64,000 bases of DNA from Verrucomicrobium sp. BvORR106 (GTDB taxonomy: Bacteria > Verrucomicrobiota > Verrucomicrobiia > Verrucomicrobiales > Verrucomicrobiaceae), in the NCBI RefSeq assembly GCF_000739655.1, contig NZ_BATR01000163.1, positions 1 through 64,000 of the forward strand. The letters are read 5' to 3'. Numbering within the stretch: the first letter of the stretch is position 1; each line of letters opens with the position of its first letter. Shown in pieces: positions 27,753 through 44,023 of this stretch. Position numbers and translations under genes: made by a program. The notes under the pieces are model-generated. The model saw only the letters and a program-made list of their open reading frames with translations, did no database searches and was not told the DNA's origin.

Positions 27753-29603
27753 TTAAGATGCAGGCTTCGAGGGTTCGCTGGCGTGCTTCAGAATGAATTC
27801 CACAATCGGGGTGCTGTCCTGCAGGCCATGCGGATGGTGACCCACACCTTTTTTCTCGATCAGCTCAATGGGGCCACCCAGGCTCCGATAGCGGGTGGCG
27901 ATGATCCCGGTGTTCTCATCCCAGGGCACCACGTCGTCCGCATCACCGTAAACATGGAGCAGCGGCACCTTGCGCTGCGCGAGAGGCCCTAGGTTGTCCA
28001 CCGGATTGCCCTTGTAGGCCAGAGCCTCCGCCTCGTCCTTGAAGCCCCACAGCTTCAGCACCAATTGCCAGTTTTTAGGATCACCCTTCCCCTTCCCTTT
28101 CCCGCCGGGCCAGCTCTTGAAGTCGCACACCGGAGCGTCCGCATAGATGCAGGAGACTTTGTCCGGGTTGGCGATGGCCCAGTTGTAGCAGTACAGACCA
28201 CCACGGCTCAGCCCGACCAGCGCAGGTTTCTTACCCAGTCCGTACTGCTCGGTCAGCACCTTGTAGAAGCCATTCCATTTCTCCACGGCGGGCGGGCTGC
28301 CCAGCATGTCATTCACTCGGAGGTAGGCGATGTGGAAGCCCTTTCCCAGCAGAGCCACATCCGGATCCGGTTTGTGGCCAAAGAATTCCCCATGCCAGAC
28401 CCAGGGTGCCCCCTTCGCGATCGTTTTGGGCACCACCACACTCGCCACCTGCCCATTCAGATCGAACTCATAGCGATCAAATCCCTTCCAGTTGCTCTTC
28501 TTGCCGGGGAACGGCGCAGTAGCCGAAGCAGAGGCCGGTGCGGGAGCAGAAGCCTCTGGCTTGGCCACCCCTACCCAGGCGGAAGGCCCTGCCGACAGCA
28601 GAGTCTGGATCTCGGTCGTCAGAGCGGCGGCCTTCGCTTGTGCCTCAGGCAGCGGCAGCCCCGGGGCCACCCCGGGCCGCTTGTGGCCCACATCGCTCAT
28701 CCAGGCCGCTTTCATCAGGCGCTGGCGGGCAGCCACAGACTTGTAGAGCCTCGCCAGCCGTCCCTGAGGCGCCGTGAGATCCTCCACGCGGTAGTCATGC
28801 TTTACCCCCCAGGCGCTGAGCAATGGCTGGGCCATCACCCAGTGCCCTTCGGCATTGGGATGGATCCCGTCACGACAGAAGCTGAATGCTGCGTCCGCTT
28901 TGCGTTTCTCCGCGAGCGCCTTGGTCATTGCCCCATGGACATCCACCACCACCCATTTATCACTCTCCGCCATCCGCTGGAGCCAGGCACCATACTGCGC
29001 CAGCACACCATCATAACCTTCAAAGGGCCTCGGGTACGCGTCCAGTCCCGCCGGCAGGACCTTGTCTTTGATCGGCAAGGGGTCGAACACGGGGGGCGTC
29101 AGGTGGACGACGCCGATGCCGCGGGAAGCAGCTTCCTTGCGCAGGTCACGCATCCCAGACTCATATTTGCCAAACCGCTCCTCACTGTAGGGGTAGTAGA
29201 TCCCGTCATTCATCCCGTAGCAAGCCACCACCAGCTGCGGCTTGGTCTTCTCCAGAGCCCGGGTCAGCCGCTCGTGCAGATCCGGGCGCGGGAACTTCCC
29301 ACCCGCGTGCCCGTCCTCTGAAAGCCCGGAGACAGTCTCGCTGGAAAGGCCAAGATCGATGATGTCATACCGCTTGGAAGTCGTGGCTAGCAGTACGGTC
29401 TCGATATACTCCACATATTTGCCATCCGCGGTGATGCTGTCCCCCAGGAAAACGATCCGCCCCGCATCGGGAAGCCCTTTAGGTGTGGCGGAGGAAGCAC
29501 TGGCTGACTGGGCCAGGAGGGTATCCGCGCCCATCAAGGTGGATACGGAAACGGCAGCCGACAGCAGCAGGGCCGACCAGGAACGATTCAATAGAGTGGA
29601 CAT
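27753..29603 (-). CDS. Secreted two-domain esterase, tandem paralogue with short linker
   Basis: From the ATG at 29603 the product has 616 residues. The signal peptide (about 1-32, ending L-L-A-Q) is followed by an SGNH hydrolase (G-D-S-I-T, Ser56; G-M-N-D, Asn132; D-G-I-H, Asp245/His248). The alpha/beta hydrolase domain has G-L-S-R-G-G (Ser466), an acid in V-Y-G-D-A-D-D and a terminal histidine in G-V-G-H-H. The domains are very similar to those at 25345-27585, including a shared G-G-K-G-K-G-K-G-D loop. The linker is only about 20 residues (348-368) against about 140 in the paralogue. It lies 167 bases upstream of the paralogue on the same strand, so the two may be co-transcribed. The first ATG (29636) is possible but less signal-peptide-like. 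Confidence 0.82.
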   Translation of the reverse strand: MSTLLNRSWSALLLSAAVSVSTLMGADTLLAQSASASSATPKGLPDAGRIVFLGDSITADGKYVEYIETVLLATTSKRYDIIDLGLSSETVSGLSEDGHAGGKFPRPDLHERLTRALEKTKPQLVVACYGMNDGIYYPYSEERFGKYESGMRDLRKEAASRGIGVVHLTPPVFDPLPIKDKVLPAGLDAYPRPFEGYDGVLAQYGAWLQRMAESDKWVVVDVHGAMTKALAEKRKADAAFSFCRDGIHPNAEGHWVMAQPLLSAWGVKHDYRVEDLTAPQGRLARLYKSVAARQRLMKAAWMSDVGHKRPGVAPGLPLPEAQAKAAALTTEIQTLLSAGPSAWVGVAKPEASAPAPASASATAPFPGKKSNWKGFDRYEFDLNGQVASVVVPKTIAKGAPWVWHGEFFGHKPDPDVALLGKGFHIAYLRVNDMLGSPPAVEKWNGFYKVLTEQYGLGKKPALVGLSRGGLYCYNWAIANPDKVSCIYADAPVCDFKSWPGGKGKGKGDPKNWQLVLKLWGFKDEAEALAYKGNPVDNLGPLAQRKVPLLHVYGDADDVVPWDENTGIIATRYRSLGGPIELIEKKGVGHHPHGLQDSTPIVEFILKHASEPSKPAS

Positions 29604-29708
29604 GAGGTGACGGTGAAGGAAGCGAACGGGGCGCATACCGACGGGTTCAGCACTTGCCCCTCCCTCTAATAGCCAGCACCCTGGCCTTTCTTCCCAACTA
29701 TTTGCAAC

Positions 29709-30497
29709 TCAATGTGGTAAAACTTCGCCAACGGTCACCCTCATGGCCTTGAGCTTGAAGGGGCCAAACAGGGTCGCCAGAGCCACATCCGCCGCGTCAC
29801 GTCCATAGGCCACCACGATGCGGTTCCCCTTGGTCACATCCTCCGTGGCATCAAAGGTAAACCAGCGCCCTCCCAGATAGGCCTCAAACCACGCATGGAG
29901 ATCCATCGGCTGCAGTTCGTGCAGGAAACCCACCACCATGCGCGCCGGGATATTCATCGCCCGGCAGAGACTGATGCCCAGGTGTGCGAAATCCCGGCAG
30001 ACGCCTGCCCGGCTCTGGACGGTGTCCAGAGCGGAGGTAGAGGAGTGGCTCGCTCCGTGTTCATACCTGACATTCCGGTGAATCCAGGTCCGGATCCGGG
30101 CAGCTCTCAGGTAAGTCTTGGGGGAGTTCCCGGCCACCTGCATCGCCAGCTTCCCGAGCTGGTCAGACGGGCAATATCGGCTGGGCAGCAGATAGTGCAT
30201 CACCTCGGTGGGGAGCTGCTCCACCGGCAGTATGGGCGCCATCAGGTCCACATCCACTCCATCCGCCACGTCCGCCCGGTACTCCACCGCCAGATGCAGC
30301 CGCCCCTTGGGCATGACGAGCCTTTGGCAGAGGTTGCCATAGAGATCGTCAAACTCCACCACCGGCACCCGTGGATGGAGATGAAACGACTCCTTCATGA
30401 TCCACTGGGCCCATCCGCTCCGCGGACGCAGCATGAAGACGGCGGAGACGGGACTGGGACATTCATAGTCCAACTGGCAGGTGGCATCGAGGATCAT
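29709..30497 (-). CDS. Transglutaminase-like cysteine protease family protein
   Basis: This 262-residue protein has the transglutaminase core triad: Cys in S-R-A-G-V-C-R-D-F-A-H (C167), His in M-D-L-H-A-W-F-E (H201) and Asp in F-T-F-D-A-T (D216). Residues 1-110 form a beta-rich N-terminal domain typical of this bacterial class. There is no signal peptide or transmembrane segment, so it should be cytoplasmic. Related bacterial proteins are thought to be proteases or amide-bond enzymes, some linked to cyanophycin-like or ATP-grasp clusters, but no such partner lies here. The ATG at 30497 is well placed. Confidence 0.85.
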   Translation of the reverse strand: MILDATCQLDYECPSPVSAVFMLRPRSGWAQWIMKESFHLHPRVPVVEFDDLYGNLCQRLVMPKGRLHLAVEYRADVADGVDVDLMAPILPVEQLPTEVMHYLLPSRYCPSDQLGKLAMQVAGNSPKTYLRAARIRTWIHRNVRYEHGASHSSTSALDTVQSRAGVCRDFAHLGISLCRAMNIPARMVVGFLHELQPMDLHAWFEAYLGGRWFTFDATEDVTKGNRIVVAYGRDAADVALATLFGPFKLKAMRVTVGEVLPH

Positions 30498-30623: not shown

Positions 30624-30866
30624 ATGCGTACCAACCCTGCATTGGCCATGGCGACTCTTTGCCTCACCCTTCTGGCCCTGGGCCCGGTGGCGTGCAGCGG
30701 CCCGGTCAATCCCCGCACACCTGTCTCACGCAAATCAGCCCGGCAGATGGAGCATTACAACAACGTGTACGGTGGGACCCCGGTACTGGGAGAGCCTTCC
30801 CGTGACTCCCAGTATGTGCCACGGCAGCAGGAGCAGAATGGGTTCAACACCTTCCAGATTCATTGA
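30624..30866 (+). CDS. Small predicted lipoprotein
   Basis: This 80-residue product has a hydrophobic signal segment ending in G-P-V-A-C (residues 20-24), which is a weak lipobox with Cys24 as the likely lipidated residue. The mature part is short, polar and Gln/Asn-rich, without a known domain. The ATG at 30624 gives M-R-T-N-P, a good basic start for a signal peptide; upstream in-frame codons are poor. The next plus-strand gene begins 55 bases downstream, so the two may form a small operon. The function is unknown. Confidence 0.6.
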   Translation: MRTNPALAMATLCLTLLALGPVACSGPVNPRTPVSRKSARQMEHYNNVYGGTPVLGEPSRDSQYVPRQQEQNGFNTFQIH

Positions 30867-30921
30867 TCGAGGCGGAGCCCCCCCTGCCCTCTCCGCAACT
30901 CAGCCCCTCCCCAGCCTCGCC

Positions 30922-31500
30922 ATGGATCCCCTCACTCCACCTGTGCTTCCTGAAACCACGCTGGGCGGATTGACGCCCGGTGAGATCCGGGCGGTCACCC
31001 ATGAGCGGCTCCGTCTGCTCTCCTGGGGTTATTTCATCGCTGGTGGCATGGGCATCTTGTTCTCCAGCTTCTTCCTCATCTATGTGGCGATCTTTGGCGC
31101 GGTTTCGATGATTCCCGCCTCCCAGTGGGAGTCTTCCTCTTCCCACCAGCACCGTCATGACGAGCAATTCGTTGGTGACCATGCCCCGTCAGCGCAGGAC
31201 GGAAACCGCGAGGAGACGCCTTCAGCCACTTCACAAAGTCAGCATTCCTCCGGGCCACCACCGGTCTGGATCTTCCGTATCTTTGCCGGGGTGATGTTTG
31301 TGGTCGTCCTGATCGGCTGGGCCATCTCCGGGCTTACCATCTATGCCGGCCGCTGCATCCGCCAGCGTCGCAATCGCCTGCTCATCCTGGTGATGGCGGG
31401 CGTCAACGTGATGAATATTCCACTGGGCACACTGCTGGGAATCTGCACCTTCATCGTCTTGCAGTCTGAGCCGGGCCGCAAAGAGTTCGCTGGAGCGTGA
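30922..31500 (+). CDS. Uncharacterised membrane protein with N-I-P-L-G-T-L-L-G motif
   Basis: This 192-residue protein has a first hydrophobic block at about 33-62. A soluble polar loop rich in Ser, His and Gln (about 67-112) follows, then a transmembrane pair at about 115-140 and 155-182. The last segment carries M-N-I-P-L-G-T-L-L-G, which matches the L-Q-F-P-I-G-T-I-L-G block of the small membrane protein at 36950-37318. The two belong to one family. The loop is probably variable in length between members. The ATG at 30922 follows the lipoprotein gene closely. The role is unknown. Confidence 0.65.
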   Translation: MDPLTPPVLPETTLGGLTPGEIRAVTHERLRLLSWGYFIAGGMGILFSSFFLIYVAIFGAVSMIPASQWESSSSHQHRHDEQFVGDHAPSAQDGNREETPSATSQSQHSSGPPPVWIFRIFAGVMFVVVLIGWAISGLTIYAGRCIRQRRNRLLILVMAGVNVMNIPLGTLLGICTFIVLQSEPGRKEFAGA

Positions 31501-32744: not shown

Positions 32745-33836
32745 CTAACCTCCTTGGCTGACCGTCACCGCCAGTCCCGGCACCGCTTTGATTTTCTCAG
32801 CCAGATATCGCGAATAGATGCTCGCCCCCAGCTGGTTCAAGTGGGTGCGGTCGGCAAGATCGCCCTCGCCCGCCCCACACTCGTCGGTGTCCAGAATCTG
32901 GATCACGGCCGCGGGAGTTGGCTTGAGGGAAGCCACGTAGTCGGAGAACTGCCGGAATCCCTTGCTGTAGCGCGGATCCGACTTCACGAGCTTCACCACA
33001 TCAGGATGCACGGGCATTTGGTGAAGCACCACCGGCACCTTGTGTTCATCAAGCCAGGCCAGAAGATTCCGAAGAGATTCATCCTGCAATTCCGACACCC
33101 GCCAGTTGCCAAAGAAACGACGCGCCACCATCTCCGGTGACACCTTCTGACGATCACGGTTGTAGCGATGGGCGTGATTCACCACCCAGCCAGCCGCTGG
33201 GAGAGCCTTCTGCTCCGGGCAAGGGCAGAGCGCATTGCCCGGGCAGGGATCAAGCACATTGAGGAACACTGTGCGCAGAGATCGCCGGGCCGAGTAGAGC
33301 GGCAACACCAGATCCATCAACTGCCGTCTCCGCATGTGAGCACTGGCGATCGTGAGGCGCTCATGCAGGGTCGCCTTCTGACTCAGACTCAGCACCATGC
33401 GGTCATCACCTTCCAGGCCCTTCTGCAGGACGAAGGGGTTGATCTCCACCACCGCCAGATGCAGGTCCTTGAAACTCTCAGGATTCCGTCGCACGAGGCT
33501 CCACATATCGAACGGTGTGCCTCCGGGGGTACCGAGATTGCGCACCCGCTCCGCTTTTTCCCCGAGGCAGGTGGCCACTTCGCTCTCAGAGATCCCGAAG
33601 ACGCTCTGGCTGGTGCCAAAGCAGGCAACCTCCACCGGATTGGGATTCTTCTTCAGGTAGTAGGTTTCCACCGCGCCGTACGCGTCCATCCCGCCCCGCT
33701 CGTCGAAGTGGGGCAGCCCCCGCAAGTTTTCCGCTGCGAACCGGCCCGCCAAGAGGACGGCCAGCGCCACGAGCGCTCCTGAACCGAACCACTGCGAAAC
33801 GCCGCGCTTGGGTGGGGTGGGAAGAGTGTCTGCCAT
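32745..33836 (-). CDS. Membrane-anchored SGNH-like protein, possible MBOAT partner (copy 1)
   Basis: From the ATG at 33836 the product has 363 residues with one N-terminal transmembrane segment (about 18-35). The body carries an SGNH-like block I, F-G-T-S-Q-S (73-78), and a block V D-R-T-H (D329, H332) followed by L-N-Q-L-G-A. This arrangement is seen in DltD, AlgJ/AlgX and other membrane-tethered partners of MBOAT acyltransferases. Such proteins move an acyl group to a surface polymer. An MBOAT gene lies about 3.5 kb away on the same strand. The paralogue at 33910-35022 shares the whole plan. Upstream in-frame ATGs exist at 33887 and 33863; 33836 leaves a usual short cytoplasmic tail. Confidence 0.72.
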   Translation of the reverse strand: MADTLPTPPKRGVSQWFGSGALVALAVLLAGRFAAENLRGLPHFDERGGMDAYGAVETYYLKKNPNPVEVACFGTSQSVFGISESEVATCLGEKAERVRNLGTPGGTPFDMWSLVRRNPESFKDLHLAVVEINPFVLQKGLEGDDRMVLSLSQKATLHERLTIASAHMRRRQLMDLVLPLYSARRSLRTVFLNVLDPCPGNALCPCPEQKALPAAGWVVNHAHRYNRDRQKVSPEMVARRFFGNWRVSELQDESLRNLLAWLDEHKVPVVLHQMPVHPDVVKLVKSDPRYSKGFRQFSDYVASLKPTPAAVIQILDTDECGAGEGDLADRTHLNQLGASIYSRYLAEKIKAVPGLAVTVSQGG

Positions 33837-33909
33837 GTGGAGGGTAGAGTGCCGGAAACGCATAACATACCCAAGTAAAAAATCCAACCTCGAACCGGGA
33901 GTGATTTAC

Positions 33910-35022
33910 TCAGAGGTCATCCCGCACCTTGTCTGCCGTCACCGGGTCCATCAGGGTGCGGATGTTTTCCCCCAGATGCAGCGAGTAGTAGCTGGCACCG
34001 CTTTCATTCAGGTGCATGCGGTCCGCCATCCCTGACTTCCCGGCACCACATTCATCGGGATGCAGCAGTCGCACCATGCCTGCCGCCTTCGGTCGCAGGG
34101 TCTCTACGTAGGCGGAGTACTGGGTGTAGCAGTGATGAAACTGGGTGTCGCTGCGGATGAGATCCACCACCTCAGGATGCAGCGGGAACTGGTGAATGAG
34201 CACCGGGATTTCATGCTCCTCCATCCAGGCCAGCACCTTCTTCAGGCAGAGATCCTGCAGGGCGGAGGCCTTCCACCCCTTGGAGCCCACGAGCCTGCGG
34301 GCGGCCACCTCCGCAGGCACCATGGAGCGTTTGGTCACGGCCCCGGCATTTTGCATGTACCAGTCGGCAGCCGGGTGAATGCGTCCTTCCGGGAAGGGAT
34401 AGAGCTCCGCACCCTCTACGGGATCCGCCAGAGCAAGGAACACCGAGCGCAGGGAGTGCCTGGCTGAAGTCAGCGGGAGCAGCCACTCCGCCTGCTGCTT
34501 CATCCGTTCATGCCGGTAGTGCAACAGGTTGCGCTCCTCGAGGGTGGCGTACTGGCTGATCGAGTGCTGCAAGCGTGGATCGCCCTCCTTCACCGCCTGC
34601 ATCATGACGGGATTCACCTCCACCACGGCCAGCTTCAGATCATCAAAATACTCCGGATTTCGGCGGATCAGGTTCCACATGTCGAAGGGCGTCCCCGCCT
34701 CCACCCCCAGCACCCGCAGTTCTTTCGGATCATGTCCAGAAGCGCGGCCCACCACCTCCGGCACTAGCCCCCAGAACGTCTGGCTGCTGCCAAAGAAAGC
34801 CACCTGTGGGTCCACCGCCTTCTTGCGCAGACCATAGTGCTCCACGGCAGCAAAGGCTTCCATCGCCCGGCCATCGTAGTGTCCCAGCGTCCGGAAGGGC
34901 TCCGCAGCCAGCCTCCCCAAGATGAACAATCCGGCGGCGATCAGCGCCCCTGAACCGAGCCAGCGTCTCCGGATAGGAGGGGCCACCGGAGCATCAGGGT
35001 TCGGGGAGTCGGTGTGAAGCAT
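33910..35022 (-). CDS. Membrane-anchored SGNH-like protein, possible MBOAT partner (copy 2)
   Basis: From the ATG at 35022 the product has 370 residues. An N-terminal transmembrane segment (about 22-38) precedes an extracytoplasmic SGNH-like domain with F-F-G-S-S-Q-T (77-82) and, near the C-terminus, A-D-R-M-H-L-N-E-S-G-A, whose Asp and His match the catalytic D-x-x-H. The protein is a clear paralogue of 32745-33836 along its full length (shared T-P-F-D-M-W-x-L-I/V-R-R-N-P-E block). The 73-base gap between them suggests a tandem duplication and joint transcription. An alternative ATG at 35046 adds 8 residues. The role of acyl-transfer partner is inferred from fold and neighbours. Confidence 0.72.
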   Translation of the reverse strand: MLHTDSPNPDAPVAPPIRRRWLGSGALIAAGLFILGRLAAEPFRTLGHYDGRAMEAFAAVEHYGLRKKAVDPQVAFFGSSQTFWGLVPEVVGRASGHDPKELRVLGVEAGTPFDMWNLIRRNPEYFDDLKLAVVEVNPVMMQAVKEGDPRLQHSISQYATLEERNLLHYRHERMKQQAEWLLPLTSARHSLRSVFLALADPVEGAELYPFPEGRIHPAADWYMQNAGAVTKRSMVPAEVAARRLVGSKGWKASALQDLCLKKVLAWMEEHEIPVLIHQFPLHPEVVDLIRSDTQFHHCYTQYSAYVETLRPKAAGMVRLLHPDECGAGKSGMADRMHLNESGASYYSLHLGENIRTLMDPVTADKVRDDL

Positions 35023-35110
35023 GGTGAATAATGAATGAATTTTCATTCATAGTCCAGCGCCCACCGATTCTGTTGGGGATCTTTTTTATCACCTGCCTTG
35101 GGTGAACGGA

Positions 35111-36736
35111 TCAGGCCGCCAAGACGTCTTCACCACCCTGGCCGTCCGTGAAGGGGCCGTCAGACAACTCGATGTCCGGATTGCGATTCTGGAAGGTGCC
35201 CAGGTACCACGCGTCGGAGATCAGCAGCACCGGGCGGCCCAGTTCATCGCGAGCCAGCGCCGTTTCGCGAACGGCGGTCACTGCATCATCCGACCAGGCC
35301 TCCCCACCCTTGCGGCGGACCCAGCGGACCACCTGCCAGGAGGCGTTCTCCAGGCGGGATTCCGCGTTGTACTCGGACTGGAGGCGATATTTCACCACTT
35401 CAAACTGCAGAGGCCCCACTGCCCCCAGCAGAGGCACTCGCTGCACGGAGCCTGGCTGATGGAACTGCTGAATCACGCCTTCCTGGAGGAGTTGCTGCAA
35501 CCCTTCGCGGAAACGCTTGTATGTGGCAGGTGAGTCACCATGCAGGTAGGCGAAGCACTCCGGCACAAAGCGGGGCATCACATCGAACTTCAGCTTGGGA
35601 TCATCCGCCAAGGTGTCACCGATCATCAGGTCGTAGTTGCCCACCACGCCCAGCACATCCCCTGCGAAGGCCTCATCCAGGGTCTCCCGCTCCCGGGCGA
35701 ACACACGCTGGGAGTTGGACAGCCTGACCGCCTTACCGGTGCGTGGGTTGTTCACCACCATATCGCGACGGAAAGCCCCTGAGACCACACGGAGGAAATA
35801 AATACGATCCCGGTGACGGGGATCCATGTTTGCCTGAATCTTGAAGACGAAAGCCGAGAAGGCCGGAGCTTCGGGAGCGACAGCGCCGGTATTCGCCACG
35901 CGAGGCGCGGGCGGAGGGGCCATCTCAAGGAAGGCATCCAACAGGAGTTGCACACCGAAGTTGTTGCTCGCACTGCCGAAAAACACGGGAGTGAGTTCAC
36001 CACGCGAGATGGCATCCATGTCGAACGCGTGACCCGCCCCATCCAGCATCTCCAGCTCTTCACGGGCCTGGGCCAGGGCATGCTCATCGACATGCTCCTT
36101 CACATACTCGTCATCCAGTCCACCCACCCGAACCGGAGCCCGGTACGCACCGCCGGCAGTACGCTGGAAAAGGTGCACCTGGCTTTCGCGGCGCTCAAAG
36201 ATCCCTCGGAAGCGGTCCCCCATGCCCAGCGGCCAGTTTTGCGCGCAGGCACCGATGCCCAGCACCGTCTCCAGCTCGTCCAGCAGCGTCAGCGGCTCCC
36301 GGGCGGGCCGGTCCAGCTTGTTCATGAACGTGAAGATGGGCACGCCGCGCTTGCGGCAGACTTCAAAGAGCTTCCGCGTCTGGCTTTCGATACCCTTACC
36401 CGCATCCACCACCATGATGGCAGCGTCCACCGCCGTGAGCACCCGGTAGGTATCCTCGGAGAAGTCCTTGTGACCGGGGGTGTCCAAAAGGTTCACGACG
36501 CAGTCCTTGTACTCGAACTGCAGAACGGTGGAGCTCACCGAGATCCCACGTTGCTTTTCCAGCTCCATCCAGTCGGAGGTGGTGGACCGCTGATTCTTTC
36601 TGGCTGTGACCGATCCCGCAAGCTGCACTGCGCCCCCGTAAAGGAGGAGCTTTTCCGTCAGCGTGGTTTTCCCGGCGTCCGGGTGGGAAATGATGGCAAA
36701 GGTGCGGCGGCGGCGGACTTCGGAGGCAATGTCCAT
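35111..36736 (-). CDS. prfC: Peptide chain release factor 3 (RF3)
   Basis: This 541-residue translational GTPase is of full RF3 length. G1 is S-H-P-D-A-G-K-T-T (17-25), the switch region contains R-G-I-S-V-S-S, G3 is D-T-P-G-H (85-89) and G4 is N-K-L-D (139-142). The C-terminal domains include the RF3-type M-P-R-F-V-P-E and Q-L-L-Q-E-G segments. RF3 uses GTP to release RF1 or RF2 from the ribosome after termination. It is a housekeeping gene inserted between the SGNH-like pair and the MBOAT/FkbH/ACP genes, all on the minus strand. The ATG at 36736 is unambiguous. Confidence 0.97.
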   Translation of the reverse strand: MDIASEVRRRRTFAIISHPDAGKTTLTEKLLLYGGAVQLAGSVTARKNQRSTTSDWMELEKQRGISVSSTVLQFEYKDCVVNLLDTPGHKDFSEDTYRVLTAVDAAIMVVDAGKGIESQTRKLFEVCRKRGVPIFTFMNKLDRPAREPLTLLDELETVLGIGACAQNWPLGMGDRFRGIFERRESQVHLFQRTAGGAYRAPVRVGGLDDEYVKEHVDEHALAQAREELEMLDGAGHAFDMDAISRGELTPVFFGSASNNFGVQLLLDAFLEMAPPPAPRVANTGAVAPEAPAFSAFVFKIQANMDPRHRDRIYFLRVVSGAFRRDMVVNNPRTGKAVRLSNSQRVFARERETLDEAFAGDVLGVVGNYDLMIGDTLADDPKLKFDVMPRFVPECFAYLHGDSPATYKRFREGLQQLLQEGVIQQFHQPGSVQRVPLLGAVGPLQFEVVKYRLQSEYNAESRLENASWQVVRWVRRKGGEAWSDDAVTAVRETALARDELGRPVLLISDAWYLGTFQNRNPDIELSDGPFTDGQGGEDVLAA

Positions 36737-36949
36737 AAGGTCAGGTCAGAATCGAGCAGGCTCCCCCGAGAAGTCCCAGAGGAGAAAAGTGGGTGGCGAG
36801 CAAACCACGGAAAGCCGGTGCTGGCAAGCGATGGCACTCGCAAGCAACGAGGTTCCAAAGAACTTGTCACCTGATTCAGCCCCCATTTGCTCGACACGGA
36901 GGCAAATTCATCGCATTGCGAGCAGCCCAAACCTTTGTCCCTTCATCCA

Positions 36950-37318
36950 ATGAGCAAAAGCGCCCCTACTCAGCTGAAATCAGCAGCCAATGCCCTTATC
37001 GCGATAGGCTTCTTCTACATCCTCATCATTGTCATGGTCTTCACCATGGCCTCACGGCCACCGGACAAGTTTGGCTCCATTTTTGGCAGCATCGTGCTCG
37101 GCTTCGGATTGCTGCTCTGGTTCGCAGCTTTTTTGCTATACCGCTGCAATAGAACTGGTCGCATCATCTGGTACATCTGTTCACCGATTGTCCTGCTTCA
37201 GTTTCCGATTGGGACCATCTTGGGCGTCATGGTGTATGTGCATCTCGGGAAAGAGGAGTCTCGGAAAGCTCTCGCCTCACGAAAGACCTCTCCTCCGGCT
37301 CTGCCAGTGACGGACTGA
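36950..37318 (+). CDS. Small membrane protein, relative of the protein at 30922
   Basis: This 122-residue protein has three hydrophobic segments (about residues 13-33, 44-64 and 74-96). The last carries L-L-Q-F-P-I-G-T-I-L-G, shared with the larger protein at 30922-31500. The C-terminal tail is polar (K-E-E-S-R-K-A-L). The ATG at 36950 gives M-S-K-S-A-P-T. It is divergent from prfC and convergent with the MBOAT gene; a 9-base inverted repeat spans both stop codons. Its function is unknown, and it sits inside the candidate acyl-transfer locus only by position. Confidence 0.65.
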   Translation: MSKSAPTQLKSAANALIAIGFFYILIIVMVFTMASRPPDKFGSIFGSIVLGFGLLLWFAAFLLYRCNRTGRIIWYICSPIVLLQFPIGTILGVMVYVHLGKEESRKALASRKTSPPALPVTD

Positions 37319-37362
37319 GTAGTCTCCGCCCGCCACTGGACCAGTAGTCATCAACTACTCAG
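37315..37362. terminator. Inverted repeat spanning two convergent stop codons
   Basis: CTGAGTAGT at 37315-37323 pairs perfectly with ACTACTCAG at 37354-37362 across a 30-base loop. The left arm includes the TGA of the plus-strand gene, and the right arm includes the reverse-complemented TGA of the MBOAT gene. There is no T-run, so intrinsic termination is uncertain. It may be a weak bidirectional end structure or chance. Confidence 0.3.
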
Positions 37363-38828
37363 AACTGGAAATAGACGAAGGACACGCCCGTCATCTCGCC
37401 CAGGTAGGTGAGCAGCAGCAACAGGCACCCGAAGACAAGTCCCCGCTTCCAGGAGGGCGCATCGTCCGCGACAGGGCGCTCGCGATCATTCCACCAGCAG
37501 GGGAAATCCAGCAGTACGATGACGAGTCCGTAGAACGCAAAGTAAACGGCAGGGATGGTGTCCGCCGTGGAGAACCCCTTGGTGAAGATGCCCGCAATGT
37601 GGTTCCATGCCTCCATCAGGTTCCTCGTCTTCACGAACACGAGGGTCAGGCACACCGCGTGGAAGGTGAGAAACATGCCCGCCAGCTGCACTGCCCAGGC
37701 GCGGGGAGTGTGCGGACGGTGCGGATGCTTGCCTGCCTTCGGCCCCGCCCAGAGCTTGTGGATCACCAGCAACAGCCCCAGCACCACACCCCAGAACACG
37801 AAGTTCCACGAGGCCCCGTGCCAGATGCCGGACACCAGCATGGTGACGAAGAGGTTGAACGGAATCCACTTCTTCCCCCGGAAGATGCGGCACAGCGGGA
37901 CGAAGAGATAGTCCCGCAACCAGCTCGACAGGGAAATGTGCCAGCGCTCCCAGAACTCCGTGATGTTGCGCGAGAAGTACGGCTGGCGGAAGTTGATCAT
38001 GAGCTCCACCCCCATGAGGCGGGAACAGCCGCGCGCGATGTCGCTGTAGCCGGAGAAATCCCCGTAGATCTGCAAGGCAAAGAGGTAGATGCCCAGCAGC
38101 AACCCCACCCCGGAGTGCGGTAGAGCAGGATTGAAGGCGTCCGCTGTAATTGGGGCTATGGCATCCGCAATCGCCACCTTCTTCACATAGCCGATGATCA
38201 CCAGTTGGAGGCCGCTCCAGAAGCGTTCTGGCGTCAGCGTGCGCTGCCGCATGAGCTGGGGCAGCAGGTTCGGTGTCCGTTCAATGGGCCCGGCGACCAA
38301 CTGCGGGAAGTACGCATGAAACAACGCGAAGTCCCAGAAGCGATCCGGCGGCTTTTGGGAACCGCCATCCACGTCGATCAGATAGGACAGGCCCTGGAAG
38401 GTGTAGAAGCTGATTCCTGCCGGGAGGATGAAGTTCCGTTCCACCGCCGTGAGATGCCAGCCCATCTGGGCGGCCAGCGCCTCCACGTTCTCCATGAAGA
38501 AGCCGCGATACTTGAAGTACCCCAGCATGCCCACATTGATCGCCACCCCCACCCAGAAGATGACCCGCCTTCGCTTCGACTCCTCAGGCAAAGGATACAG
38601 CGCCACGGCGCAGACATGCGTGGCCACGGTGGACGTGATCAACAGTGCCAGAGGCAGCACGCGGTCGAAGCCATGCAGGCCGGGCGCGTTAAGCCCCCAC
38701 CATCCGTAGAAGACATAGCTCGCCGCCAGGAGAAACCAGTTCTGCCAACGCCAACGGCGTGCCATCATCCAGTAGACGGCGAAGACAACGAGAAAAAAAA
38801 CGACAAACTCCGGTGAGTTAAAAAGCAT
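37359..38828 (-). CDS. MBOAT-family membrane O-acyltransferase (AlgI/DltB-like)
   Basis: This 489-residue polytopic protein has about ten hydrophobic segments and the full MBOAT pattern: P-A-G-I-S-F-Y-T-F-Q (137-146), V-A-G-P-I-E-R (178-184), F-W-E-R-W-H-I-S-L-S-S-W-L-R-D-Y (292-307) and the catalytic-histidine block W-H-G-A-S-W-N-F-V-F-W-G (His337). Such enzymes carry an acyl group from a cytoplasmic donor across the membrane to a surface polymer, usually with an SGNH-type partner. Upstream on the same strand lie an FkbH-like gene and an acyl carrier protein gene, which may supply the donor. The 159-base gap to FkbH leaves room for a separate promoter. The polymer is unknown. Confidence 0.92.
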   Translation of the reverse strand: MLFNSPEFVVFFLVVFAVYWMMARRWRWQNWFLLAASYVFYGWWGLNAPGLHGFDRVLPLALLITSTVATHVCAVALYPLPEESKRRRVIFWVGVAINVGMLGYFKYRGFFMENVEALAAQMGWHLTAVERNFILPAGISFYTFQGLSYLIDVDGGSQKPPDRFWDFALFHAYFPQLVAGPIERTPNLLPQLMRQRTLTPERFWSGLQLVIIGYVKKVAIADAIAPITADAFNPALPHSGVGLLLGIYLFALQIYGDFSGYSDIARGCSRLMGVELMINFRQPYFSRNITEFWERWHISLSSWLRDYLFVPLCRIFRGKKWIPFNLFVTMLVSGIWHGASWNFVFWGVVLGLLLVIHKLWAGPKAGKHPHRPHTPRAWAVQLAGMFLTFHAVCLTLVFVKTRNLMEAWNHIAGIFTKGFSTADTIPAVYFAFYGLVIVLLDFPCWWNDRERPVADDAPSWKRGLVFGCLLLLLTYLGEMTGVSFVYFQF

Positions 38829-38987
38829 CAGTGAAACAAGAATGACGATAGGCGCGTGATCTCACACCTCCGATGGCCATATGCCCGGAGGTTAAGTTAT
38901 TGGGGTGTGCCTCACTCATCTGAAGCACGTCAGCCCGGCATCACGGCGGCGTCATGGTCTTGGTCAATGGCATCGCTGGTCTTGAGC

Positions 38988-40826
38988 TTAGGAAACCTGC
39001 GTTGGCAAATCGGAATATGAAGAAAGTTTCAGCATGGATTCACCCGCACGCCCTTCGCGAGCCGCGAAGCCAAAATCCGCCAGGAGCGTCTGCACTGGCA
39101 CATTTTTCGCCGTGGGCAGGTATTCGCCAACGACGGCATCGTAACCTTGTGCCAGAGCTTGGTGCACCAAGTGATTGAGCGTCCAATGCTCAACGGTCCG
39201 CCCCATCGCCCGGCAGCTCATCAGCCAAGTGTCCAGCCGCAGGGCATTCTCCTCCCCTGTCTCTTTCGTTCCCAGCACCACCGCGATCAATCCGTAGTCG
39301 CCAAACTTGTCTGCCAGACTCACGGCAAATGCCACGGTTCCAGGGGCAGCGATCATTTCCTCCACGGCCGCGCGGGAATGGCGTCGGGTGGTGAGATTGA
39401 ACTGGTTGGTCTTGGTGATGAGATCCACCACCCGATCGAGATTGGCTTCTGCGACAGGTTGGGCTTCGGCCTTCATCCCGAGCGAGGCAAGGTAATCCTC
39501 CGGGGAGGCTGCGGTCTCCTGACTGGCACGCCGAGAACTTTCCGCCTGATACTGCGCGGCCCGTTCTGTATCCGCGCTGGTCACATCCACCGCCTCAAAT
39601 GCCAGGGACTCCTGGAGCGCCCGGATGTAGAGGTCCGGATCGACCGGAGCCTCCACCACCGTCACTTCTGGCAACTCGGCCCGCATGCGCTCGCGTTCCA
39701 CCGGGTTGTCATCAAAGAACACAAAACTGTCCAGCCCCAGATTGAGCTCCTTTGCCATGAGCCGCAGGCGCACCGGCTTGGGATCCCAGCTCGCGTGAAA
39801 CGCCGCGAAATCGGAAAGCTGCAGCACCATTTCATCATTCTTCTCGAAGGGCTCGCGAGCATCGGCGTCGTTGTTCTTGGAGGAGACCGCGAGAATCACG
39901 CCCGAGTCTTTGAGGCGCTTGGCGTATTTCTGGAAGGCGGTAAACGCCTGCCCTTCCCCGGTGCCTCCCACCGCGATGCCATGAGGCCCGTTCTCCCCCA
40001 CCACGCCCCCCCAGAGCGTGTTATCCAGATCCAGCACCAGAACCTTCCGCCTCCCGGAGGTCAGGGCGCGCACGCCCGTGGCCAGATGACGGCCGACCCG
40101 TGACAACCCCGCCGGCGAAAAGGGCTGCTTGAGCCAGTGGTAGTTGCGCTCATCATAAAACTCCGCCTTGCCGCGCCAGGCGCTCAGGCTTTCGAGATCC
40201 ACGTAGTAAGCCCCTGCCGGCAGGGCCGCCCGCTGCGCCGCATTGACGCGTTGCACCAGTTCCACCGTGCCACCACGTCGGGAGGAAAGGCTGTAACCCA
40301 AGGGACCGGGATGCACCCAGTCATAGGAGACCTGCACCAGTTTCGATTTCAACCGGGCCACTTGTGCCCAGACCTGCTTGAGAAAGGCCATCTCATCATC
40401 CACACGCTCCACCGTGCCACGATCTCCGGCCCCAAGGAGACGCTGATGCCAAGGCAGGACCACGATCACGGCCGGAGCACTCTCCGGGGACAGCTGCATG
40501 AGCTCCTGCAGCACCTGATCATACTCGCCATCCTTCACACTCACCCGCAGGCCTTCAGACCAGGCCCATGCGGTGACCACCGGCGGCAGATAGGTGGTGG
40601 TGCATTGTCCCAGCAGCAGCACTTCCACAGCCGACGCGTCCCCTTCACCTGCAAGTCCGGCGGAGGCGGGAAGGTCTTTTTGCAGCAACTTTCCCATTTG
40701 CGCGACCTGCCCCGGCTCCAAGATCGGCACCACCTTTCGAGCCAGCCGCAGGGCCTCGTTGAGGGCACCGTCCTTGCGCAGACGGCGGTAGTTGGCAACG
40801 GGATCCGGAGAGGTGTTTGGCTCCAT
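38988..40826 (-). CDS. FkbH-type HAD-IIIC family protein
   Basis: This 612-residue protein has three parts: an N-terminal SGNH-like region (about 65-250), a HAD-IIIC phosphatase core with D-L-D-N-T-L-W-G-G (266-274; Asp266 and Asp268) and V-F-F-D-D-N-P-V-E-R (about 367-376), and a C-terminal GNAT-like region (from about 470). This is the FkbH architecture. Characterised FkbH proteins bind 1,3-bisphosphoglycerate, load a glyceryl unit onto an acyl carrier protein and remove the phosphate. An ACP gene lies 58 bases upstream on the same strand, which strongly supports that role here. Its pairing with an MBOAT suggests the carrier-bound unit goes to a surface polymer rather than a polyketide; no polyketide synthase is nearby. 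Confidence 0.88.
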   Translation of the reverse strand: MEPNTSPDPVANYRRLRKDGALNEALRLARKVVPILEPGQVAQMGKLLQKDLPASAGLAGEGDASAVEVLLLGQCTTTYLPPVVTAWAWSEGLRVSVKDGEYDQVLQELMQLSPESAPAVIVVLPWHQRLLGAGDRGTVERVDDEMAFLKQVWAQVARLKSKLVQVSYDWVHPGPLGYSLSSRRGGTVELVQRVNAAQRAALPAGAYYVDLESLSAWRGKAEFYDERNYHWLKQPFSPAGLSRVGRHLATGVRALTSGRRKVLVLDLDNTLWGGVVGENGPHGIAVGGTGEGQAFTAFQKYAKRLKDSGVILAVSSKNNDADAREPFEKNDEMVLQLSDFAAFHASWDPKPVRLRLMAKELNLGLDSFVFFDDNPVERERMRAELPEVTVVEAPVDPDLYIRALQESLAFEAVDVTSADTERAAQYQAESSRRASQETAASPEDYLASLGMKAEAQPVAEANLDRVVDLITKTNQFNLTTRRHSRAAVEEMIAAPGTVAFAVSLADKFGDYGLIAVVLGTKETGEENALRLDTWLMSCRAMGRTVEHWTLNHLVHQALAQGYDAVVGEYLPTAKNVPVQTLLADFGFAAREGRAGESMLKLSSYSDLPTQVS

Positions 40827-40884
40827 GGTCAGTCGGCTCAGAAAAGCAAATCGGGACGCTGTCTCGGCAGATCAGATGGGCGTC

Positions 40885-41121
40885 TTACTTCTTCTTTTTC
40901 CGGTCCACGAGTTCCACGAGATCCCCCACGTTCTTAAGATAAGCCATCTCCGAAGTGGAGAGACGCACCTTGAAAGCATCCTCCACCTCCATCATCAGCG
41001 TCACGTGCTGGACAGAGTCCCAAGCCTCAATGTCCTGGGCGGTGGTTTCATTGGCGATCACCAGTGAGTCGTCGTCGAAAACATTGCGAAAAACCTCCTG
41101 AAGCTGCGCGAGAGTGCTCAT
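40885..41121 (-). CDS. Acyl carrier protein paired with FkbH
   Basis: This 78-residue acidic four-helix protein has the phosphopantetheine attachment site in A-W-D-S-V-Q-H-V (Ser36), followed by the acidic helix M-M-E-V-E-D-A-F. The Asp-Ser is conserved, while the W-D-S-V-Q variant differs from the D-S-L-D of housekeeping AcpP, so it is a dedicated carrier. The tail is Lys-rich (K-K-K-K). It is the first gene of the minus-strand run ACP, FkbH, MBOAT, with 58 bases to FkbH. It should carry the unit made by FkbH. The divergent lipoprotein gene starts 131 bases away, so the promoter probably lies at 41122-41252. Confidence 0.9.
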   Translation of the reverse strand: MSTLAQLQEVFRNVFDDDSLVIANETTAQDIEAWDSVQHVTLMMEVEDAFKVRLSTSEMAYLKNVGDLVELVDRKKKK

Positions 41122-41252: not shown

Positions 41253-42473
41253 ATGAAATCCCCCCTCCTTCTCCCGCTGTGTGCCGCCTTGGCAACCACC
41301 CTCGTGGTCCTGCCTGCCTGTTCCAAAAAACAGGAAAGCCCCCCAGCCAATGCGGAACAACTGGCACCCGCGCCACCTGCCTACAAAACTCTGGCCGATG
41401 CGCCGGAAGCGGATCGCGTAGCCGTGGATGCCTTTGCGAAAAAGCTGGAGCAGGATCTGAAGACTGACAATGCCGCCGGCGTAAAGGCAGCCTTTCACCT
41501 CAAAGGCATCATCGCCAAGATCCTCAGCGGCGTGCATACCTCTGGTCCGGACATGGACAAATTCCGCCTGGGGATGAATCAGGGTCTGCGACAGAACCTG
41601 GACCACCTCATCAAGATGTGGTCGGAACAGCACGTGGCCTACAAGCATCTGGTCATCCATGAAGGCCTGCTCAAGCCCCGCTTCCGCTTCTCCTCCGACA
41701 CCACCGGCACCATCCTCCTCGACTTCACCGTCGAAAAGGATTCCGAAGGCAAATGGGGGATTGTCGACTTCTACAATCAGGTTCTCGGCACCGGGATGGT
41801 TGAGCAGAGCCGTCAAACCGCACTTCCTGCTCTCGCAGAGCTGGACAAGTCCTTCATGAAGCGCCTGTTCGACAAACCCAACACCAAGCTGGAGGACATC
41901 GAGAAGTTCGGAAAGCTCTCAGACAAGTTCCGCCAGCAAGATCACAAGGGCGTGGTCGAAATTTACAACTCGATGCCCACGGAGTTGCAAAACAACGTGA
42001 CAGTCAATGCCCTGTATCTGGGCGCATTGCAGGCATTGGGTGACGCAGAAGGGTATAAAAAGGCCCTGCTGGCCTCCGCAAAAAACTCCACCTCTGCCAA
42101 CTTCCAGTTCAAACTGGTGGATCTCTACTTCATGGAGAAAAACTACGACAAGGCGATCGAGTGCCTGGATGCCTTCATGGCGTCCTTGGAGAAGGACGCC
42201 GAGCTCCTCTCCTGGAAGGGACAGCTGCAGGTGGCCAAAGGAGAATCCGCCAACGCGGCCACCACCCTCCGTGAAGCCTTGACCCTGGAGCCCAAGAATG
42301 AAGACATCCATGCCCAGGCTCTGGACGTGTTCCTGGCCGTGAAAGACTTCGAGGCCACGGCCAGCAGCATGAAGTTCCTGGAAACCACAGGCAAGTTCAA
42401 GTTCAAGGACTCCCTGAAGGATCCTCTCTGGGCGGAGTTCCTCCAGTCTCCCGCCTCCCAGCCCTGGCGTTGA
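41253..42473 (+). CDS. TPR-containing lipoprotein
   Basis: This 406-residue protein has a lipoprotein signal peptide with lipobox V-L-P-A-C (Cys23), so it should sit in a membrane facing the periplasm. The first half (about 45-200) is an uncharacterised mixed domain. From about residue 250 the sequence becomes helical with tetratricopeptide-like repeats (F-K-L-V-D-L-Y-F-M-E-K-N-Y-D-K-A-I-E-C-L, then S-W-K-G-Q-L-Q-V-A-K-G and L-T-L-E-P-K-N-E). TPR lipoproteins often scaffold envelope complexes. It is divergent from the ACP gene and shares an upstream region with it. No specific partner can be named. Confidence 0.78.
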   Translation: MKSPLLLPLCAALATTLVVLPACSKKQESPPANAEQLAPAPPAYKTLADAPEADRVAVDAFAKKLEQDLKTDNAAGVKAAFHLKGIIAKILSGVHTSGPDMDKFRLGMNQGLRQNLDHLIKMWSEQHVAYKHLVIHEGLLKPRFRFSSDTTGTILLDFTVEKDSEGKWGIVDFYNQVLGTGMVEQSRQTALPALAELDKSFMKRLFDKPNTKLEDIEKFGKLSDKFRQQDHKGVVEIYNSMPTELQNNVTVNALYLGALQALGDAEGYKKALLASAKNSTSANFQFKLVDLYFMEKNYDKAIECLDAFMASLEKDAELLSWKGQLQVAKGESANAATTLREALTLEPKNEDIHAQALDVFLAVKDFEATASSMKFLETTGKFKFKDSLKDPLWAEFLQSPASQPWR

Positions 42474-42559
42474 GCCAGGCCCGGAGGCGAGAGCACAAAA
42501 GTACCTCTTGCTGGCACAAAGGCGCGCCAGTTGCTCGCTGGGATTCCCGTAATCCCCGC

Positions 42560-44023
42560 ATGACCCGACGTTTTGTGATTTCTGCGCTGGCTGCGGTTGC
42601 CACCGTGCTGGCCGCATCCGCCTCTCCTGCCGCCCCGGTATTCCAAGCCGGAGCGCACGCCCAGGACATCTCCCCCACTCACTTCCCCACGCCGGTGAAC
42701 GGCAGCCTGAAGGGCGGCTTTGCCAAGGGGATCACCGACCCCATTCACGCGCGATGCCTGGCGCTGCAGGATGGCAGCAACGCGATGATCCTGGTGGTGG
42801 TGGATGCCTGCATGATCCCCCAGGACATCTGTGTCAAGGCCAAGGCGCTGGCTTCGGCGAAGACGGGCGTGCCGGTCAACAGGATGCTCATCTCCGCCAC
42901 GCACACGCACAGTTCCGCCACACTGGCCTCCGTGTTTCAAAGCGATCCTGATCCCGCCTACATCGCCGCCCTGCCCGAGCGGATCGCAGCAAGCCTGATC
43001 ACGGCCTATCAAAACCTCGAACCTGCGGAAGGGGGCTGGGCCATGGGGGAAGATGCCACCCAGGTCTTCAACCGACGCTGGCTGGTGAAAGAGGGAGCCA
43101 GCTATGAGAACCCCTTCGACGGCATGGCCGACCGGGCCTGGATGAACCCCGGCGTGGGCAATGCCAAGGTGAGCGGGCCCACCGGTCCCGTGGATCCTCA
43201 GGTGGCTGTCTTCGCCGTGCGCTCCGCCGCCGACAAACGGCCGCTCGCGGTGCTGGCCAACTACAGCCTGCACTATGTGGGAGGGAATCCGGCGATCTCA
43301 GCGGACTACTTTGCGGCCTTTGCCAATGAGCTCTCCCATCAACTGGACGCCGGGGACCAGCGCTATCAGAACAAGCCCCCCTTCGTAGGGATCATGTCCA
43401 ACGGCACCAGCGGCAACATCAACAACATCAACTTCGGAGCCACCGTACCGGCAGGAAGACTGCGCGCCGGGCAGCGCATCCAGGAAGTGGCCGCCTCCGT
43501 GGCCGGGGCGACCATGAAGGCCTACGGAGCTATTCCGTGGAAAAAGGACCTCACCCTGGACTCACGCGAGGAAGTGCTGCAGCTGGATGTGCGCAAGGCA
43601 ACGGGTGACGAGCTGGTTCGAGCCCGCAACATCCTGGAAACAGTGCCCAAGGACAAGGACGGCCAGTGGGCCGACCGCAAGGCCATCTATGCGCGGGAGG
43701 CCGTGCTGCTGGACGCCTACCCTGACAAAGTCCCGGTCAAGCTCCAGGCGCATCGCATCGGCGATCTCGCCATCACCAGCATCCCCTGCGAGGTATTCGT
43801 GGAGATCGGCCTGGATCTGAAGAAGACGAACCCATTCAAAGGCAGCTTCACCATCTCCCTGGCGAACGGCTACAACGGCTACCTGCCAACCACGGAACAA
43901 CATGCCATGGGCGGCTACGAGACTTGGAGAGCCCGCAGCAGCTATCTGGAGGTGCCCGCGGCAGACAAGATCAGCGCCTCGTTGAAAGCCATGCTCGCCA
44001 GCCTGAAGAAAGACGCATCCTGA
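42560..44023 (+). CDS. Neutral/alkaline ceramidase-like secreted hydrolase
   Basis: From the ATG at 42560 the product has 487 residues with a signal peptide (about 1-25, ending S-P-A-A-P). The motif A-T-H-T-H-S-S (113-119) supplies the His pair of the neutral-ceramidase zinc centre, and N-Y-S-L-H-Y-V-G-G supplies another His. The length is shorter than true ceramidases (about 650-700 residues), so the C-terminal Ig-like domain is missing. Bacterial relatives hydrolyse amide bonds in ceramide-like lipids, and many PVC relatives have unknown substrates. The frame is open further upstream, but those codons lack a signal peptide. It is preceded by the TPR lipoprotein on the same strand with an 86-base gap. 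Confidence 0.78.
   Translation: MTRRFVISALAAVATVLAASASPAAPVFQAGAHAQDISPTHFPTPVNGSLKGGFAKGITDPIHARCLALQDGSNAMILVVVDACMIPQDICVKAKALASAKTGVPVNRMLISATHTHSSATLASVFQSDPDPAYIAALPERIAASLITAYQNLEPAEGGWAMGEDATQVFNRRWLVKEGASYENPFDGMADRAWMNPGVGNAKVSGPTGPVDPQVAVFAVRSAADKRPLAVLANYSLHYVGGNPAISADYFAAFANELSHQLDAGDQRYQNKPPFVGIMSNGTSGNINNINFGATVPAGRLRAGQRIQEVAASVAGATMKAYGAIPWKKDLTLDSREEVLQLDVRKATGDELVRARNILETVPKDKDGQWADRKAIYAREAVLLDAYPDKVPVKLQAHRIGDLAITSIPCEVFVEIGLDLKKTNPFKGSFTISLANGYNGYLPTTEQHAMGGYETWRARSSYLEVPAADKISASLKAMLASLKKDAS

Follow-up and report, generated by a model that had tools for sequence, protein, structure and literature searches.

The window analysed here is a stretch of 64,000 nucleotides from Verrucomicrobium sp. 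BvORR106 (contig NZ_BATR01000163.1, positions 1 to 64,000), across which open reading frames (ORFs) of at least 70 amino acids were listed. A first-pass annotation had described in it a minus-strand run of genes for an acyl carrier protein (ACP), an FkbH protein, a membrane-bound O-acyltransferase (MBOAT) and two SGNH proteins. The run proved to be real, with frames and strand as described and with profile searches confirming the ACP, FkbH, MBOAT and RF3 families. Read along the minus strand, it consists of ACP, FkbH, MBOAT, prfC, SGNH_A and SGNH_B, all of them open frames, with successive gaps of 58, 159, 622, 64 and 22 bases. The prfC gene (35111-36736, encoding RF3; NF001964, 717.6 bits) lies inside the run and is not counted as a member of the system, because no such gene stands between MBOAT and SGNH in the relatives G004, G007 and G014 (G and L numbers denote genomes and loci, respectively); these gene orders identify it as an insertion in the cassette.

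The first gene (40885-41121, minus strand like the rest of the run) encodes a predicted dedicated ACP of 78 amino acids, a lone carrier with a WDS site, in which Ser36 (codon 41014-41016) would bear the phosphopantetheine. It scored 22 bits against PF00550 (cut-off 20.8) and adjoins FkbH across the 58-base gap. The housekeeping acpP is encoded elsewhere in the genome (114 bits vs 26 for the cassette ACP), and copies of the cassette ACP with 72-97% identity occur in G001, G003, G004, G007 and G014. The FkbH-type glyceryl transferase/phosphatase (38988-40826, 612 amino acids), the only FkbH of the whole source genome, was recognized by TIGR01686 with 295.5 bits (cut-off 146.65), and its N-terminal part resembles BF1531 (structure 3slr). 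An alignment of 10 relatives showed D266, D268 and C538 to be invariant; the two aspartates belong to the HAD motif DLDNTLWGG (Asp266-Asp268 at 40023-40031), and Cys538, which we take to be a functional residue, lies in an SCR motif (39213-39215).

The MBOAT (37359-38828, 489 amino acids) scored 78.1 bits against PF03062 (cut-off 27), and its AlphaFold model, with a predicted local distance difference test score (pLDDT) of 84.0, retrieved DltB (8jem) as the top Foldseek match (E 1.2e-14). TIGR04091, the DltB equivalog, gave 177.9 bits, below its cut-off of 375. Likeness to DltB was considered as a sign of carrier use and rejected, because MBOATs found elsewhere in the genome reach TIGR04091 scores (136-181 bits) equal to those of linked ones. 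The catalytic His337 of a WHGA motif (37818-37820) is invariant in alignments of 8, 20 and 25 MBOATs, and Tyr486 among the 25 chosen ones (the sequences of alignments A4 and A7 were chosen by hand and are mostly whole proteins). This tyrosine is the predicted acceptor in the C-terminal hexapeptide FVYFQF (37362-37379), an acyl-shuttle motif of the type seen in PatA-like MBOATs. In the part of PMC12148441 that deals with such systems, PatA is described as acylating the Tyr of its own C-terminal hexapeptide and DltX as having an equivalent motif, with the acyl path leading from the MBOAT to this Tyr, to the Ser of the SGNH protein and then to the polymer. Given that FVYFQF is fused to the window MBOAT, no DltX would be needed.

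The two membrane-anchored SGNH-like proteins, SGNH_A (33910-35022, possible start 35046) and SGNH_B (32745-33836, possible start 33887), are paralogues with 45-46% identity, and each has one N-terminal hydrophobic segment. Their putative triads lie at 34783-34785 (Ser), 34021-34023 (Asp) and 34012-34014 (His) in SGNH_A, and at 33609-33611 (Ser), 32850-32852 (Asp) and 32841-32843 (His) in SGNH_B; all three residues are invariant in 13 relatives, and in a wider set of 17 the invariant ones are Ser and His only. The Pfam signal of the pair is near nil, with no match for SGNH_A and one to Lipase_GDSL_3 below the cut-off (E 0.0069) for SGNH_B. The model of SGNH_B (pLDDT 70.3, predicted template modelling (TM) score 0.68) retrieved DltD (6o93) as the first Foldseek match, with E 1.6e-5 and a modest TM score of 0.41, and SGNH-fold chains at Z 12-14. 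Since a single SGNH gene serves in G007, the pair is best read as a duplication, and the idea of two SGNH genes as an obligatory pair, on the model of AlgJ/AlgX, is weakened by the same genome. G004 and G014 have a second SGNH gene on the opposite strand, 4-5 kb from another MBOAT. With a catalytic His, a C-terminal Tyr hexapeptide and a linked, anchored SGNH protein with a Ser-His-Asp triad, the window cassette displays the features of MBOAT-SGNH envelope acylation systems.

Conservation of the cassette in relatives and across bacteria

The six-gene run is intact in two congeneric species, G001 (Verrucomicrobium sp. BvORR034, copy L038) and G003, at 89-97% identity, and this retention indicates that the arrangement is not due to chance. 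In G007, which belongs to another genus, ACP, FkbH, MBOAT and SGNH are contiguous, with ends that overlap or touch, and prfC is absent. FkbH, MBOAT and SGNH remain together in G004 and G014, from which the ACP has moved away yet is still 72-74% identical; the relocated gene adjoins TetR-like, pyruvate carboxylase-like and E2-subunit-like genes (named by eye). A distant version comprising FkbH, ACP, a MaoC-SDR protein, MBOAT and SGNH is held by G013. Among 38 relatives FkbH scored above its cut-off in 14, and an MBOAT lies alongside in 7 of these (G000, G001, G003, G004, G007, G013 and G014); none was found near FkbH in G009, G023, G024 and G034, viewed over 9-20 kb, or in G026, G033 and G037, where the view spans only ~1.5 kb.

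Over the phylum as a whole, 25 of 193 genomes have an FkbH above the cut-off. A survey of adjacency at this level had been suggested by the first-pass annotation: the run is kept with prfC in G001 and G003, without it in G007 and in part in G004 and G014, but elsewhere in the phylum FkbH genes mostly have no MBOAT next to them. The annotation had also named FkbH and ACP genes sitting with polyketide genes, with the MBOAT independent, as a finding that would refute a joint system, and this applies in part. Some FkbH regions of the phylum do lie in frames of 1300-4200 amino acids resembling polyketide or peptide synthases, but in the subfamily of the window FkbH (at least 64% identity, 6 genomes) an MBOAT stands alongside every time.

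For a wider view we collected 80 FkbH loci, the best 80 of 591 in named genomes and hence a sample biased toward the window FkbH, and detected MBOAT and ACP genes in them with profiles built in this analysis. HAD motif I was present in 77 ORFs of these loci, 75 of them also having the Cys motif. An MBOAT was found in 40 loci, an ACP in 71 and both in 39; for the 33 full-length loci the counts were 18 with an MBOAT and 31 with an ACP. A rough chance expectation, from 80 MBOAT matches in ~206 Mb of the 38 relatives and 1.09 Mb of loci, is ~0.4 MBOAT-bearing loci vs the 40 observed. The ORF following the MBOAT was scanned with Pfam in 20 hand-picked cases, of which 11 matched GDSL, DUF1574 (presumably an SGNH-like family), DltD, ALGX or SGNH at E of 0.1 or less, 8 gave nothing useful and 1 was an epimerase.

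MBOAT-bearing FkbH loci span ~12 phyla, going by record titles, and the cassette also occurs on Sinorhizobium meliloti pSymB, so it is not confined to this phylum. Sinorhizobium plasmid records have FkbH in 40 and MBOAT in 41, and in the annotated region of pSymB (CP140955.1) the MBOAT, a 409-aa protein, the ACP and FkbH lie at least ~4 kb upstream of capsule export genes. The 409-aa protein (L194:14054-15283), annotated as a TonB-dependent receptor, is probably of SGNH type, judging from motifs seen by eye. In the Rhodobacteraceae strain SC52 the ACP, a HAD-IIIC protein, the MBOAT and a protein with SGNH-like motifs, again noted by eye, are consecutive. Pfam gave no match for the SGNH candidates of S. 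meliloti, SC52, Tistrella and Metabacillus, whose assignment comes from motifs by eye. In a Lachnospiraceae locus (L046:4802-9155) FkbH and ACP are followed by genes that, by eye, are GcvH-, dihydrolipoamide dehydrogenase- and lipoate ligase-like. The open literature in PubMed Central, the scope of our search, which leaves aside subscription journals and preprints, yielded no envelope pathway in which FkbH is paired with an MBOAT or with DltB.

Donor loop of the MBOAT and its co-change with carrier linkage

The contact of DltC on DltB, as given for this interface in PMC11035591, involves Val305, Ile306, Met309, Lys312 and Arg317, between His289 and His336, and this stretch aligns with residues 310-325 of the window MBOAT. 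At this place MBOATs that are not linked to a carrier gene have PLGG[NS]R or variants of it, and carrier-linked ones, the window MBOAT included, are without it. Residues 307-325 of the window protein (YLFVPLCRIFRGKKWIPFN, 37854-37910), where DltB has the helix that docks DltC, accordingly align as a carrier-type loop lacking PLGG. The loop pattern was widened after variants such as PLGGT, PLGGSH and PIGGN had appeared, so that the rule is partly post hoc. The first counts gave a PLGG-type loop in 0 of 38 readable linked MBOATs and 32 of 32 unlinked ones.

These 32 were the best PF03062 scorers, with only ~1.5 kb of flank. Because this set was top-scoring and had short flanks, a second and less selected one was fetched, made up of 37 stretches with 38 more genes and ~4 kb flanks where contigs allow. 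The loop was present in 31 of its 36 whole MBOATs of relatives, and the five without it (L254, L255, L264, L267 and L269) are all near an ACP gene, L255 and L267 being Dlt-like operons that include an AMP ligase. The first ACP profile failed to detect the ACP of L269; spotted by eye, this ACP was then built into a second profile, which matched exactly these five among 72 unlinked loci. The 16-kb stretch of L254 has an additional PLGG-type MBOAT ~3.9 kb from that ACP, which was scored as not linked. In total, over 122 MBOATs, a PLGG-type loop was found in 0 of 51 readable carrier-linked proteins and in 67 of 68 that are not linked, the exception being G006; three linked MBOATs were unreadable by the loop pattern, and their sequences show no PLGG. 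Points from outside these sets were as follows: Neisseria PatA has PLGGSK, DltB of Lactobacillus and DltB of the PDB are without a PLGG loop, and so is a Metabacillus MBOAT adjoining an ACP and an AMP-binding protein, and four other plasmid MBOATs have the loop.

On the best tree computed without the loop columns (the final tree omits L268 and L270, whose genes are broken over two frames, and L235) carrier linkage shows a minimum of 13 changes, or 8 counting starred branches only. Eight independent pairs could be drawn on starred branches, of which 7 have loops that differ in the expected direction, 1 shows no difference and 0 are opposite (sign test p 0.0156), and 6 pairs as expected came from earlier 87-row trees; the trees were quick ones with long branches. 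The window MBOAT clusters with those of G007, G014, G006 and L038 on a starred branch, and in the first tree it fell within a starred set of 16 rows, 10 of them unlinked MBOATs. Given this nesting among mostly unlinked MBOATs, it probably acquired carrier linkage independently of DltB.

The loci L255:507-4854 and L267:1745-4843 place an AMP ligase, a DltB-like MBOAT and a small ACP in two relatives of this Gram-negative phylum, and the former additionally holds an SGNH-like gene, recognized by eye. In L254:3520-7250 and L264:3496-7199 a carrier-type MBOAT is followed by an ORF of 447 or 472 amino acids whose N-terminal region contains an ACP domain, with a long unknown remainder; in L254 the two are separated by an SGNH-like gene. 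Within a single 10-kb stretch, a genome of the same order (L229:1591-12066) has FkbH, an SDR and an AMP ligase together with two ACPs and two carrier-type MBOATs.

A proposed carrier-fed acylation pathway and its alternatives

We consider it fairly probable that the cassette is a carrier-fed envelope O-acylation machine. FkbH enzymes are known to load a glyceryl unit from 1,3-bisphosphoglycerate, and the window FkbH would take the C3 unit of this compound, remove the phosphate and leave a glyceryl thioester on the dedicated ACP. The charged ACP would dock on the MBOAT from the cytoplasmic side, at the position that DltC occupies on DltB, and the MBOAT, using His337, would pass the acyl group through the membrane onto its own Tyr486, by analogy with PatA and DltX. 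The anchored SGNH proteins would then move the acyl group from this Tyr to their own Ser and pass it on as an ester to an envelope polymer, presumably a glycan. We infer this order of steps; the genes, their linkage, the residues, the folds and the loop with its co-change are observations. As to the parts, carrier use by the MBOAT is well supported on comparative grounds, acylation with FkbH as the loader is likely, and glyceryl is on balance the favoured group. The first-pass proposal that a carrier-bound unit is passed to the MBOAT, with FkbH in the place of DltA, has thus gained independent support from the G007 block, the many phyla, the shuttle motif and the loop.

The cassette resembles the Dlt pathway (DltABCD-X) in its putative carrier donor, the DltB-like fold of its MBOAT, a DltD-like SGNH partner and a docking site without the PLGG loop. 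It differs from it in having FkbH rather than the AMP ligase DltA as the loader, in bearing the shuttle hexapeptide on the MBOAT itself rather than on DltX, and in an MBOAT score far under the DltB cut-off. Since this score falls short and no DltA-type AMP ligase was found in the ten window proteins scanned with Pfam, the cassette is not classed as a Dlt member. An MBOAT with its own C-terminal hexapeptide and separate SGNH partner(s) is a likeness to PatA/PatB, and the alginate proteins AlgI, AlgJ and AlgX show the same likeness. Unlike the window operon, with its carrier, its loader and an MBOAT without the PLGG loop, PatA uses acetyl-coenzyme A (CoA) in a pathway without a carrier, as presented in the relevant part of PMC12148441. 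The FkbH family and the lone ACP recall polyketide glycerate-utilisation modules, which differ in that no polyketide synthase family or FabH-like partner was seen in the ten scanned proteins and in that the product here would go to a membrane transferase. The cassette is likely a mix of a Dlt-like donor, a Pat-like shuttle and a new loader, rather than of the classical acyl-CoA PatAB type, and would be a hitherto undescribed relative of two known systems that decorate the cell surface.

Several observations weigh against such a pathway. G006 (91% complete) has MBOAT and SGNH genes and a carrier-type loop without FkbH or a close ACP, and conversely FkbH and ACP occur without an MBOAT in L030, L032, L033 and L034. 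The 24 phylum FkbH loci other than that of the window have an ACP in 17 and an MBOAT in just 3 (within ~1.5 kb), with an MBOAT in 2 of the 8 viewed over 8-14 kb; FkbH-MBOAT linkage therefore appears to belong to some FkbH subfamilies and not to all. In Paludibaculum a HAD-IIIC gene lies 4.2 kb from a PLGG-type MBOAT and an ACP annotation is absent. A Niveispirillum plasmid (L197:5899-10379) combines FkbH and ACP with a WcbI-type acetyltransferase and an SDR, without an MBOAT; this acetyltransferase may be a further acceptor for the same carrier-bound unit. Just 26 of 41 FkbH-linked MBOATs end in FxYxxF (28 of 41 with a Tyr there), some of the others being short types, and TIGR04091 scores fail to separate carrier-linked from unlinked MBOATs. 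Furthermore, no sugar polymer gene cluster was recognized next to the window genes among the window ORFs and in the Pfam scan. Finally, MaoC, SDR, glyoxalase-like or methyltransferase genes are added in some loci, so the transferred group may vary between loci, and their presence in relatives suggests that it did so in other lineages.

Such added genes, which lie between FkbH, ACP and MBOAT, would also be in keeping with a carrier-fed system in which the group is not plain glyceryl but lactyl, methylated, dehydrated or another C3-derived acyl, or is loaded by another enzyme. FkbH products are indeed oxidised and methylated in the polyketide pathways covered in PMC7489565. We nevertheless regard this as unlikely for the window, where no gene of the MaoC, SDR, glyoxalase-like or methyltransferase type lies in the cassette between 31.5 and 41.2 kb and FkbH is the sole loader. 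Lower still is the chance that the MBOAT and SGNH proteins form an ordinary acyl-CoA-fed O-acetylation pair that happens to sit beside an FkbH-ACP of another role. MBOAT-SGNH pairs are described as common in the corresponding part of PMC12148441, the 38 relatives alone gave 80 MBOAT matches, and G006 retains its pair without FkbH; but the linkage is held over four genera and in half of the 80 FkbH loci, and the PLGG loop seen in PatA, a CoA user, is lost, co-changing with carrier linkage on the tree. Very improbable, in our estimate, is a remnant of secondary metabolism, in which a small molecule would receive its extender or tetronate unit from FkbH and ACP and be acylated by the MBOAT. An FkbH with a lone ACP makes such units in the tetronate and methoxymalonate pathways, as treated in PMC7489565, and within the order some FkbH matches are part of very long frames. 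Against this, a motif search of the 80 FkbH loci found no ketosynthase motif and a single locus with an adenylation motif, the ten scanned window proteins hold no polyketide synthase family, and the SGNH partner and the shuttle motif point to the envelope.

A broader proposition, to which we would give about even chances, is that glyceryl (D-glycerate) esters derived from 1,3-bisphosphoglycerate are widespread on envelope glycans, and that MBOATs have switched between acyl-CoA and carrier donors many times in a manner readable from one docking-site loop. Surface chemistry would then be tied directly to a glycolytic intermediate, and MBOAT-SGNH systems would have a third loader. This would contradict the generalisation, as stated in the part of PMC12148441 on these pathways, that all MBOAT/SGNH pathways except Dlt are without a carrier protein. 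The loop signature would allow donor type to be tested simply in thousands of MBOAT genes not yet studied, and S. meliloti offers a tractable laboratory host for the cassette.

Neighbouring genes

An ORF for a small membrane protein (36887-37318, plus strand) sits in the gap between MBOAT and prfC, and a lookalike ORF is found at 30772-31500. Given that this gap measures just ~125 bases in G001 and G003, the former looks like a local insertion. A single minus-strand frame at 27753-29636 fuses a GDSL/SGNH domain to an alpha/beta hydrolase region of peptidase S9-like type. On the other side, a neutral/alkaline ceramidase-like protein (42470-44023, plus strand) adjoins the cassette and is kept in G001 and G003. 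A transglutaminase-like gene (29709-30497) is whole in the window and in G001, and its copy in G003 (L026:761-2786) is interrupted by ~1.2 kb.

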